From the NCBI GenBank assembly GCA_016872725.1, contig VGZC01000024.1:1-64000 (forward strand): a DNA stretch of 64,000 bases, written 5' to 3'. The position numbers and the translations under genes were made by a program. Below are positions 35,456 to 39,314 of this stretch, piece by piece. Source of the DNA: Planctomycetota bacterium. GTDB taxonomy: Bacteria > Planctomycetota > Planctomycetia > Pirellulales > Pirellulaceae. The notes under the pieces were generated by a model. That model made no database searches. It was not told the DNA's origin and saw only the letters and a program-made list of their open reading frames with translations. Position 1 is the stretch's first letter, and every line of letters begins with the position of its first letter.

Positions 35456-37054
35456 TCACGGCGATTCCCGCTCGGCCCCACCGTTCGCGTCCCCCTGCCG
35501 TTCGAAATCGCCCTGCGATCCGGTCGCCGCGATCGGGGAAACGGGTGACGCCGAGCTCGCCGGATCGTCGATCCACTGCTTGCGCTGGCGCGAGCTGGGG
35601 ATATTCATCTTCTGGCGGTATTTCGTGATCGTGCGTCGGGCGACATTGAGCCCGGCCTCCTTGAGCTTCCTGACCAGGTCGTCGTCGCTCAGCGGATTCC
35701 TCTTGTCCTCGTGATCGACCAATTCCCGCAGCTTGATCCGGATGCGGTCCCACGCCACATCCTCGCCTTCGTCGGAACGCGTGCCGCCCACGAAAAACCG
35801 TTTGAGCGGATAGATGCCGCGCGGCGTCTGGATCCATTTGTCGTCCACCGCGCGGCTCACCGTCGTCACGTGCACACCGACCTTCTCCGCGATCTGCTGC
35901 ATCTTGAGCGGCTCGATGAACTCGGGGCCGTCTTCCAAGAACTTCGATTGGTAGTCGACGATCGACTGGGCCACCTTCATCAGCGTGTTGCGCCGCTGCT
36001 CGATCGACTCGATCAGCCATTGGGCCGAGTTGATCTTGCGTTTCAAGAACTCCTTCTCCTCGGCGGTCGCCGTACCGTCGGCGAGCCGTTTCCGATAGAA
36101 GTCGCTGATGAAGAGCGTCGGCAACCGGTGATCGGGCATGCGGATCCGATACACGCCGTCCTCGCCCCGCTCGACAAACAAATCGGGCGTGATCGTCGGC
36201 ACGAACGTGTCGACGAATTCCGACGCGGGTTTCGGATTGAGTTTGCGGATCCGGGTCCACGTTTCATAGATCCGCGGAATCGAGATCCCGGTCGCCCGTT
36301 CGATGACGTGCAGCCGATTGTCGCGCAGGTCCTCGAGATGGCCGCGGATGATCGCCTCCATCTCGTCGCGAAACGGCATGTCGGGGCGGAGCTGGAGCAG
36401 AAGGCACTCGCGCAGGTCCCGCGCGCCGACCCCCTTCGGCTCCATGCGGTGAACACACCGCAGGGCGCACTGCGCCAGGGCGAGCGTCTCGGGACCGGCC
36501 GTCGGCGGAAGCAGGTCCTGGAGACTCGATCGGAAATAGCCCCCGTCGGCCGCGTCGAGCGTCGAGATGATCCGCTCGGCGATGCGGGCGACCTCGGCGT
36601 CCGTTTCCATTTCGCGGAGCTGGTCGAGCAGATGATCCTGGAGCGACGGAGGACGCGCGGTCAGATTGGCCATCGCGTCGTGCTGCCGGTCCCCCTCCTC
36701 GTCGATCCGATTCGCGGACCGCCGAGGCGACTCGTCGAAATAGTCCGGCACCTCGCGATCGAGATTCAAGAGCCGCTCGAAGTCGTCCTTGTTGTCCCCC
36801 TGCTCGGTGACGACCAGCGGCTTCTCGTCCTCGGTCGGCGAATCGGGATTCGCCCGGTCCTCCGGCTCGTCCGGCAGGTTCGGATCCTCCTCCGTCATTT
36901 CGAGCACCGGGTTCTCGTTCAATTCCTGCTCGATCCGCTCCTGCAACGCCAAGATCGGCAACTGGAGGATCTCCATCGACTGGATCATCCTCGGAGCCAG
37001 TGTCTGCACTTGCTTCTGAACTTGTCGTTGGTCGAAGCCAAGGCTCAGTCGCAT
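35456..37054 (-). CDS. rpoN: RNA polymerase sigma-54 factor
   Basis: 532 residues from ATG 37054 (MRLSLGFDQRQVQKQVQTLA), full length. Region I is Gln/Leu-rich (APRMIQSMEILQLPILALQE) and contacts activator loops such as the GSFTGA loop of the activator at 2453. An acidic linker (about residues 60-130) is followed by the core-binding domain, then the HTH and the C-terminal RpoN box ARRTITKYR near residue 490, which reads the -24 element. A further 45 residues after the box (up to GGAERESP) are unusual low-complexity sequence. It lies 16 bases after ybaB and continues the dnaX-ybaB-rpoN-thrS chain. Confidence 0.96.
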   Translation of the reverse strand: MRLSLGFDQRQVQKQVQTLAPRMIQSMEILQLPILALQERIEQELNENPVLEMTEEDPNLPDEPEDRANPDSPTEDEKPLVVTEQGDNKDDFERLLNLDREVPDYFDESPRRSANRIDEEGDRQHDAMANLTARPPSLQDHLLDQLREMETDAEVARIAERIISTLDAADGGYFRSSLQDLLPPTAGPETLALAQCALRCVHRMEPKGVGARDLRECLLLQLRPDMPFRDEMEAIIRGHLEDLRDNRLHVIERATGISIPRIYETWTRIRKLNPKPASEFVDTFVPTITPDLFVERGEDGVYRIRMPDHRLPTLFISDFYRKRLADGTATAEEKEFLKRKINSAQWLIESIEQRRNTLMKVAQSIVDYQSKFLEDGPEFIEPLKMQQIAEKVGVHVTTVSRAVDDKWIQTPRGIYPLKRFFVGGTRSDEGEDVAWDRIRIKLRELVDHEDKRNPLSDDDLVRKLKEAGLNVARRTITKYRQKMNIPSSRQRKQWIDDPASSASPVSPIAATGSQGDFERQGDANGGAERESP

Positions 37055-37070: not shown

Positions 37071-37430
37071 CTACTTCTTGGTGGAGAGCATGTCTTGGAA
37101 TTGTTGGAGCGAATCGCCGAGCCCGGCGAGGTCGAGCCCGCCGGCCGCCGATTGGAACGCGTCGGCCTGCGCCCGTTTCGATTTTTCCAGCGCGTCATTG
37201 ATCGCCGCCGGAGCCAGCGATTCGATCAGATCGCGGTCACCGACGAGCTTCTCGTCGATGCGCACTCGGACGACTTCGCCGAGCCCGTTGACATCGACGC
37301 AAACCAGGCCGCCACCCGCCGAACCGGTCAGACGGTCCGCCTTGAGTTTCTCCGCCACCGCACCCATCTTGCCCTGCAGTTCCCGAGCGCCCTTCAAGAG
37401 CGAGGCGAAGTTGGCAATCCCTCGAAACAT
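37071..37430 (-). CDS. ybaB: YbaB/EbfC nucleoid-associated protein
   Basis: 119 residues from ATG 37430 (MFRGIANFASLLKGARELQG). The family features are a helical N-terminus, the GGGLVCVDVNGLGEVVRVRI beta-hairpin, and a C-terminal helix with APAAINDALEKSKRAQA. YbaB dimers bind DNA and the gene typically lies directly after dnaX, as here (87 bases). A recR gene, the other common partner, is absent from this position; rpoN follows instead. Confidence 0.9.
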   Translation of the reverse strand: MFRGIANFASLLKGARELQGKMGAVAEKLKADRLTGSAGGGLVCVDVNGLGEVVRVRIDEKLVGDRDLIESLAPAAINDALEKSKRAQADAFQSAAGGLDLAGLGDSLQQFQDMLSTKK

Positions 37431-37517: not shown

Positions 37518-39314
37518 TCACCGCCCGTCCTCAGGGCGAACCGGCCCATCGACCCGCACGATTTCCGCGGCGAACAGGTCGCGAGCCCGAGCCACCAGCG
37601 CGTGGCGCTCGGTCTGCTGGAGCCGCTGGCGGGCCGTCGGTTTGGGCACTACCACCTCGCCTCCGTCGGCCATCGTCCGGAACTCAATACCGACCGGAAC
37701 GCCCACGAGCTGCCGTAAAGTGGTTTCCATTTCCGACTTACATGCGGCCCGCTCGCATCGTTCCTTTGCCAGATTATACTTCGCGGAAAAATAGGCGACC
37801 AGACGATTTGGCGCGATAATTGCTACATGATCGACGCGCGACGCGGCGTCCGACAGCAAATCGCTCAACCGATCGACGGTCGCCGTCCAAAAATAGTTCG
37901 CGTTCTCCGCCGTCAGGATGCCCGCGGCGGGCTCCCCGCTCCCGTCATGGATCGGCTCCCGGGCCTCAGCCGATTCGGTCGCGGTCAGGTCGGAGCCCGC
38001 TCGGTCGGAGCCGGTCGAAGGTTCAGGCTTTTTTTTTTCGGACGTCGGAGCCGATGGGGGCGGCGTCGAAGGGGCCGACGAGCGTGCCGACGCGATCGGG
38101 GCCGCACTCTCCGACCGCGAAGGAAGTGCGGGCACGGCACCTTGGCGGAGGGTGTCGACGAGTCGCGCCAGGTCGTCGAGCCGGTCGAGGGCCGTGATCC
38201 GGATGAGGGCCAATTCGAGCAGGATGCGGCCGTGTGTGCTTTGCCGCATGCGGATCAGCGTATGGTCGAGGATCTGGCTGATCGCCAGGAGGGTCTCCAT
38301 TCCGAGCGCGCGGCCTTGGGCGGCGAGCTCGGGCCAGGACTGCGCTTCGCATTGCAGGGCGAGCGACGGATCGCCCCCGACCGACGCGACCAGCATGTCG
38401 CGGAACGCCGTCAGCAATTGTTCGGCGAGGTGTCCCGCGTCGATGCCCAGCCGACTGGCCCGTTCCAAAGCCTCCATCGCGCCGGCCGCATCCCGGGCGA
38501 TCAAGCGATCGACGAGCCCGGTGAGCGTCGAGGGATCGGCCGAACCGAGCATCGCGTAGACGTCCTCGGCGGTGATCGTCGGGCCACTGAACGCGAGCAA
38601 TTGTTCGAGGAGCGATTGGCTGTCCCGCATCGAGCCGGCCGCGCGCCGGGCGAGGATGGCGAGCGCCGAATCGTCGGCGTGCCGGCCTTCGCACCGAAGC
38701 ACGTAGCGCAGCCGTTCCACGATCTCGGTCGCGTCGATCGGAGCGAAATCATAGCGCTGGCATCGCGACAGGACGGTGATCGGGATCTTCTCCGGATCGG
38801 TCGTACAGAAGATGAACTTCACATGCTCGGGCGGCTCTTCGAGCGTCTTCAGCAGGGCGTTGAACGCCTGCGTCGTGAGCATGTGGACTTCATCGATGAT
38901 GTAGATCTTGTAGGGCGATCGGCTCGGGCGGATATGGATGTTCGAGCGGAGCTGCCGGATCTCCTCGATCCCCCGATTGCTGGCTCCGTCGATTTCGATC
39001 ACGTCGATATCCTCGCCCGCATCGACGCTCAGGCAAACATCGCACGTATTGTCCGGCTCGGGACTCGGCCCCTTCTGGCAATTGAGCGCCTTGGCGAAGA
39101 TGCGGGCCGCCGACGTCTTGCCGACGCCGCGCGCTCCCGTGAACAAATACGCATGCCCGACTCGATGACCCGTGATGGCGTTCGCGAGCGCGTGCGCGAC
39201 GGGACCTTGGCCGACCAGTTCCTCGAACGAGCGCGGGCGGTACCGCCTCGCGACGACCAGATATTGGCCGGAATCCGGTTCCCGCTCATGCCGATCGTCC
39301 GGCGGACTGTTCAT
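37518..39314 (-). CDS. dnaX: DNA polymerase III subunit tau/gamma
   Basis: 598 residues from ATG 39314. The clamp-loader AAA+ motor: Walker A FTGARGVGKTSAARIFAKAL, the four-Cys zinc module (CQKG, then CDVC), DEVHMLTTQAFNALLKTLEE, and the arginine finger stretch LSRCQRYDF. Domain III ends near residue 370. Next comes a Ser/Pro/Ala linker, then a tau-specific C-terminal domain (YFWTATVDRLSDLLSDAA, FSAKYNLAKERCERAACKSE). At codons 426-429 in the linker the mRNA has ten consecutive A, a slippage site discussed separately. The gene is downstream of the SRP RNA gene and upstream of ybaB, a gene order known from many bacteria. Confidence 0.96.
   Translation of the reverse strand: MNSPPDDRHEREPDSGQYLVVARRYRPRSFEELVGQGPVAHALANAITGHRVGHAYLFTGARGVGKTSAARIFAKALNCQKGPSPEPDNTCDVCLSVDAGEDIDVIEIDGASNRGIEEIRQLRSNIHIRPSRSPYKIYIIDEVHMLTTQAFNALLKTLEEPPEHVKFIFCTTDPEKIPITVLSRCQRYDFAPIDATEIVERLRYVLRCEGRHADDSALAILARRAAGSMRDSQSLLEQLLAFSGPTITAEDVYAMLGSADPSTLTGLVDRLIARDAAGAMEALERASRLGIDAGHLAEQLLTAFRDMLVASVGGDPSLALQCEAQSWPELAAQGRALGMETLLAISQILDHTLIRMRQSTHGRILLELALIRITALDRLDDLARLVDTLRQGAVPALPSRSESAAPIASARSSAPSTPPPSAPTSEKKKPEPSTGSDRAGSDLTATESAEAREPIHDGSGEPAAGILTAENANYFWTATVDRLSDLLSDAASRVDHVAIIAPNRLVAYFSAKYNLAKERCERAACKSEMETTLRQLVGVPVGIEFRTMADGGEVVVPKPTARQRLQQTERHALVARARDLFAAEIVRVDGPVRPEDGR
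38029..38038 (-). promoter_or_regulatory. A10 slippery run in dnaX (programmed frameshift or transcriptional slippage)
   Basis: On the coding strand codons 426-429 read GAA AAA AAA AAG and contain ten A in a row. Adding one A, or a -1 ribosomal slip, gives Glu-Lys-Lys-Lys-Ala followed at once by TGA, a 430-residue product. Losing one A, or +1, gives a stop 14 codons after the run. E. coli gamma (431 residues) and Thermus gamma arise at A-rich sites in the same linker. Confidence 0.65.

Follow-up and report, generated by a model that had tools for sequence, protein, structure and literature searches.

Escherichia coli dnaX is subject to -1 ribosomal frameshifting on A_AAA_AAG, with a Shine-Dalgarno (SD) sequence and a stem-loop, and the E. 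coli gamma subunit has 431 residues. For systems of the Thermus type, the criteria include heterogeneous mRNA lengths at the run and the presence of both gamma and tau at a ratio of about 1:1. In Thermus thermophilus, dnaX carries an A9 at which transcriptional slippage occurs (Larsen et al. 2000, as cited in PMC1088944 and PMC5009743). This nine-A slippage makes Thermus gamma, and the hybrid held by the Thermus RNA polymerase is 9-10 bp long (PMC5009743; PMC1088944). In Chlorobi and other groups, poly-A dnaX genes are found that consist of two ORFs, for which transcriptional realignment has been proposed (Antonov et al. 2013, PMC3711429).

We analyzed a dnaX gene of a planctomycete, located in a stretch of 64,000 nucleotides (hereafter the window), whose sequence contains a run of ten A; its features are best explained by programmed slippage during transcription, as in Thermus, which we consider very likely. 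The identity of the gene is supported by TIGR02397 (422 bits, cutoff 250) and PRK05563 (457, cutoff 400), and tau is here the zero-frame product of one ORF. The features of the locus are the following.

37518..39314, minus strand: dnaX, tau-like zero-frame product of 598 aa (ATG 39314, stop codon 37518-37520)
38736..39203, minus strand: AAA+ clamp-loader core (PF13177, Pfam; the lid is also matched in dnaX)
38157..38576, minus strand: DnaX domain III (PF12169, Pfam), common to tau and the predicted gamma
38029..38038, minus strand: predicted A10 slippage run (from sequence; A9/A10 kept in 113/142 class-level ORFs)
38023..38025, minus strand: TGA of the -1 frame (one extra A or two fewer in the mRNA), predicted gamma of 430 aa, ...EKKKA
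37985..37987, minus strand: TGA of the +1 frame (one A fewer or two extra in the mRNA), second truncated product, predicted 442 aa
37521..38022, minus strand: tau-specific linker and C-terminal region (tau C-terminal profile), missing from both shifted products
37071..37430, minus strand: ebfC/ybaB, the usual neighbor, downstream of dnaX (TIGR00103, 59.8 bits, cutoff 49.45)

The run reads GAA AAA AAA AAG on the minus strand and T10 on the plus strand, and corresponds to codons 426-429 numbered from ATG 39314. It lies about 39 codons past the end of the Pfam domain III, within the linker, as had been described in the initial annotation, whose position, codon numbering and placement are correct. 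The -1 frame continues as AAA AAA AAA GCC TGA, stopping 3 nt after the run, and encodes a predicted product of 430 aa with the C-terminus KKKA, while in the +1 frame a stop is reached 41 nt past the run. Translation of the two frames bears out both a 430-residue product ending at GCC TGA and a +1 stop within 14 codons, which had been proposed before. An rpoN (sigma-54)-like gene was recognized by inspection directly downstream of dnaX and ebfC, at 35456-37050 on the minus strand.

An A10 had been considered unlikely in such GC-rich DNA. The run is the sole one of nine or more A in the window, where two nine-base A matches were observed versus a mean of 0.10 in 100 dinucleotide shuffles. The chance occurrence of the window run, taken alone, is only moderately improbable. 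The window's own genome (5.24 Mb) contains nine sites with nine or more A in total, mostly outside plausible coding frames; one A9 falls in the linker of a probable exonuclease. This site (L038, C32:50146-50154), which encodes QAEKKKKGPF in a probable RNase H-like exonuclease, is the clearest other A9 of the genome in a sense coding frame. The longest A-run of the genome is an A15 (L039, C47:6794-6808) just upstream of a gene whose product begins with a type IV pilin-like signal.

What excludes chance is the conservation of the run in relatives. We sampled dnaX from order-level relatives, from genomes drawn over the class and the phylum, and from named genomes, which gave 142 full-length class-level dnaX ORFs after removal of duplicates. 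As the run we scored the longest stretch of A within the 330 nt downstream of domain III, and relatedness was handled by the removal of duplicates together with fewest-change counts. In these 142 ORFs, the linker run is A9 in 66, A10 in 47, A8 in one, A7 in two, and A5 or less in 26, and no linker run of A11 or longer occurs among them. A9 or A10 is present in 113 of the 142, with variable flanking bases, and the remaining 208 kb of the 142 ORFs contain no run of nine or more A and seven runs of length 7-8. Apart from this run, there is no A9 in the genome of G043 and a single one in that of G042. It occurs in the named relatives Aporhodopirellula aestuarii (L258, A10) and Gemmata sp. IIL30 (L262, A9), as well as in an uncultured Schlesneria (L263, A10) and a Pirellulales MAG (L264, A9); since the named relatives carrying the run belong there, we take the class to be that of Pirellulales, Planctomycetales, and Gemmatales. 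One dnaX linker (L053) has two A9 runs with one C between them (AACAAAAAAAAACAAAAAAAAACG). The initial annotation had proposed that alignment of related genes would reveal whether the run is kept while its neighborhood varies, and had judged selection plausible; both expectations agree with this retention in 113 of 142 ORFs, and the lack of conservation that it had named as a refutation did not materialize.

These data also bear on the idea that the run is a mutable phase-variation (contingency) tract, a sequencing artefact, or the product of plain chance. Replication slippage does make homopolymers mutable, and some sequencing methods are prone to errors in them. Nevertheless, all run-bearing ORFs of the class keep an open zero frame across the run, with unrelated flanks and in different assemblies, and the length is confined to 9-10 across the class, which makes this explanation highly improbable.

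The run is not tied to one reading phase. Relative to codons, phases 0, 1, and 2 are found in 12, 50, and 51 of the 113 ORFs, respectively, and on a DnaX tree calculated with the linker removed (FastTree, with many weak branches) the fewest changes required are at least 25 for phase, at least 27 for A9/A10 length, and at least 20 for presence. Length rather than phase is conserved, and the occurrence of all three phases with at least 25 phase changes indicates selection on the nucleotides, not on the reading frame. The peptides encoded at the run differ accordingly in their sequence (QKKT, EKKK, VKKN, KKK, and others).

The codons touched by the run always give at least KK, as would be expected if the run were merely a Lys-rich linker peptide kept at the protein level. 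Outside the run, however, the linker contains few Lys codons (219 of 8595), and Lys in the other parts of these dnaX ORFs is encoded more often by AAG (1320 AAG and 935 AAA, i.e. 59% AAG), a codon that would interrupt the run, as the initial annotation had correctly remarked. Given the proteins and the codon usage of each gene, a run of nine or more A is expected in only about 10 of the 113 linkers, and a Lys patch at the protein level is rejected on the basis of this synonymous resampling. It would also leave the stops in both shifted frames unexplained, and we assign it practically no probability.

Those stops cluster behind the run in both frames. The median distance to the stop is 8 nt in the -1 frame and 13 nt in the +1 frame; at other places in these linkers it is 73 and 67 nt, respectively (Mann-Whitney, 2e-45 and 4e-30, P-values that ignore relatedness). 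Both stops lie within 30 nt in 81% of cases, versus 12.7% once the codons behind the run have been synonymously resampled. Since the run length and both stops are kept, selection acts on a run of 9-10 nt together with the closure of both other frames.

The 430-aa product could in principle be made by -1 programmed ribosomal frameshifting of the E. coli type, given that the window has A_AAA_AAG in frame, followed by GCC TGA, and that this heptamer ranks among the motifs most prone to shifting in E. coli (PMC4066793). A shift of this kind needs a fixed phase, a stimulator, and a -1 stop alone. In the run-bearing relatives, by contrast, no more than 23 of 113 ORFs have the heptamer in frame, the phase is not conserved, and the +1 frame is closed too, which counts against a -1 ribosomal shift because such a shift needs no +1 stop. 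Neither type of stimulator was detected: downstream RNA structure, scored by folding relative to shuffles, is not above controls (class mean z -0.27 versus control -0.52; window z +1.2), and an SD-like motif upstream of the run is found in 3 of 113 ORFs, versus 5.9% in the control, and is missing from the 20 nt upstream of the run in the window. The window's own genome encodes tRNA-Lys with anticodons UUU (L355) and CUU (L369); the latter also speaks against -1 frameshifting of the E. coli type, for which a lone tRNA-Lys (UUU) that decodes AAG poorly is expected, and the presence of both tRNA-Lys has been linked to slippage of the Thermus type (PMC5009743). Frameshifting of the E. coli type is thus very unlikely as the explanation of the run, even if some ribosomal shifting may occur in this species, where A_AAA_AAG is in frame.

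Truncation in both frames might alternatively arise from sliding of the ribosome on the poly(A)-encoded lysines, with no slippage of the polymerase. Sliding does not depend on the exact phase and terminates at stops outside the reading frame (PMC4363877). In E. coli in vitro, however, ribosomes slide little on A9 or A10, giving little product, and robustly on A11 (PMC4363877), a length that the conserved runs never reach. Because robust sliding starts only at A11 in that system, a run held at 9-10 fits the polymerase and not the ribosome, and ribosome sliding is a very unlikely explanation.

Altogether, slippage by RNA polymerase is favored by the variable phase, the closure of both frames, the missing stimulators, the in-frame heptamer in few ORFs, and the length of 9-10. 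The slippage proposed in the initial annotation is therefore supported, and the comparative data favor the polymerase in the choice between ribosome and polymerase that it had left open. Points against this main reading include the 29 of 142 class members in which the run is missing and the in-frame A_AAA_AAG of the window. In the mechanism that we propose, the T10 template would allow RNA polymerase to slip within an RNA-DNA hybrid of 9-10 bp, which would yield dnaX mRNAs with extra or missing A's. The mRNAs that keep the frame (0 or +/-3) would encode tau, of 598 aa, and those in either other frame would run into a stop directly and encode gamma-like clamp-loader subunits of 430 or 442 aa. 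These shifted products are predicted to retain domains I-III and to be devoid of the tau tail. The anatomy of the site, the conserved length with its variable phase, the clustered stops, and the lack of stimulators are shown by the sequences, whereas slipping of the polymerase at the A10, its frequency, and the entry of gamma into the clamp loader are inferred.

The run-less ORFs of the class belong to scattered lineages and include all four sampled ORFs of family f26, so that these lineages can do without gamma made in this way. A few of them have C7, A7 plus C7, or A8 with a close -1 stop (L007, L139, L153), and a scan of the 29 run-less ORFs for a shared substitute shift motif revealed none. 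Outside the class, a linker A9 or A10 is sporadic (L203, L206, L217, L234), with further cases in Phycisphaerae (L314), Verrucomicrobia (L274), and Bacteroidetes/Ignavibacteria (L287, L288, L330).

In two dnaX genes from other classes of the phylum, L232 and L242, the zero frame encodes gamma and closes 9-11 nt after an A10, and the tau tail follows in the -1 frame, which indicates that the shifted frame is coding. The tail is supported by a profile match for both and, for L232, by DnaX_C with an E-value of 4.6e-5, just under Pfam's cutoff. These genes are of the two-ORF type (Antonov et al. 2013, PMC3711429), the reverse of the window architecture.

In family f28, dnaX is split in L246 and L254, where an in-frame G_GGA_AAA is followed by GCC TGA and the -1 frame stays open for a further 230 nt, encoding a tau-like tail. 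This arrangement probably reflects -1 ribosomal frameshifting.

In order f35 (the order of G243; L336-L352 and L354), the gamma ORF stops shortly after domain III in 18 of 18 covered dnaX loci, and the tau tail, which matches the class tau tail by profile (hhalign 98.2%, E 3.7e-14), is in the -1 frame. The gamma ORF ends in NNC CCN (NNN) stop, the stop being TAG, TGA, or TAA (e.g. L346, L350). C_CCN occurs in the last two codons in 17 of the 18 and in the last five in all 18, the frequency per position across these ORFs being 2.4% and 6.1%, respectively. A hairpin begins in or just past the stop codon (mean z -2.15 versus control -0.53); its form GGGCCG...CGGCCC is strong and conserved in most of the 18 loci, and in 13 hand-selected sequences 93% of cells are paired with compensatory changes, a better value than in any other slid register. 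In E. coli, C_CCU and C_CCC count among the shift-prone tetramers (PMC4066793). The f35 genes thus probably produce tau by -1 programmed ribosomal frameshifting on C_CCN, a dnaX site of which a non-exhaustive literature search returned no prior description.

We consider it likely that recoded dnaX is the rule in the whole class, via frame-blind slippage at a run of hybrid length (9-10 bp), and that several mechanisms have served to rebuild the gamma/tau switch within the phylum: A9/A10 with tau in frame, A10 with tau shifted, -1 programmed frameshifting on G_GGA_AAA, and, in one order, C_CCN with a hairpin at the gamma stop. The initial annotation had held programmed dnaX slippage to be little described in this phylum, and the literature that we searched (planctomycetes, Gemmata) indeed contains nothing specific on it. 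One survey included two planctomycete genomes but did not name dnaX there. The kind of site is itself already known, from Thermus and Chlorobi, whereas its class-wide, frame-blind conservation in Planctomycetes is not described in the literature searched.

It has long been debated whether gamma is of use to the cell or just a by-product. A truncating slip site kept at 9-10, with both stops, through at least 25 phase changes constitutes evolutionary evidence for a selected gamma-like product. The class also offers a natural series, with A9 and A10, three phases, and about 20% of lineages devoid of the run, for testing gamma function and slippage by RNA polymerase. It follows as well that the tau/gamma annotation in Planctomycetes is incomplete.

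Compared with E. coli, the window shares a predicted gamma of near-equal length beside tau from one gene, and the heptamer is in frame; it differs in having no stimulators and two tRNA-Lys, and in the class the phase is not conserved and +1 stops are also enriched. The two-ORF dnaX genes of Antonov et al. share an A10 (or A9) run, but their subunits span two ORFs and tau needs a slip, whereas tau is the zero-frame product in the window and the class. Thermus belongs to another phylum and has an A9, while the window has an A10 and its class alternates between A9 and A10 in three phases, the slippage being predicted here from sequence. Nevertheless, the window resembles Thermus in that a single tau ORF contains an A9/A10 towards its end, both other frames stop nearby, there are two tRNA-Lys, and ribosomal stimulators are not needed.
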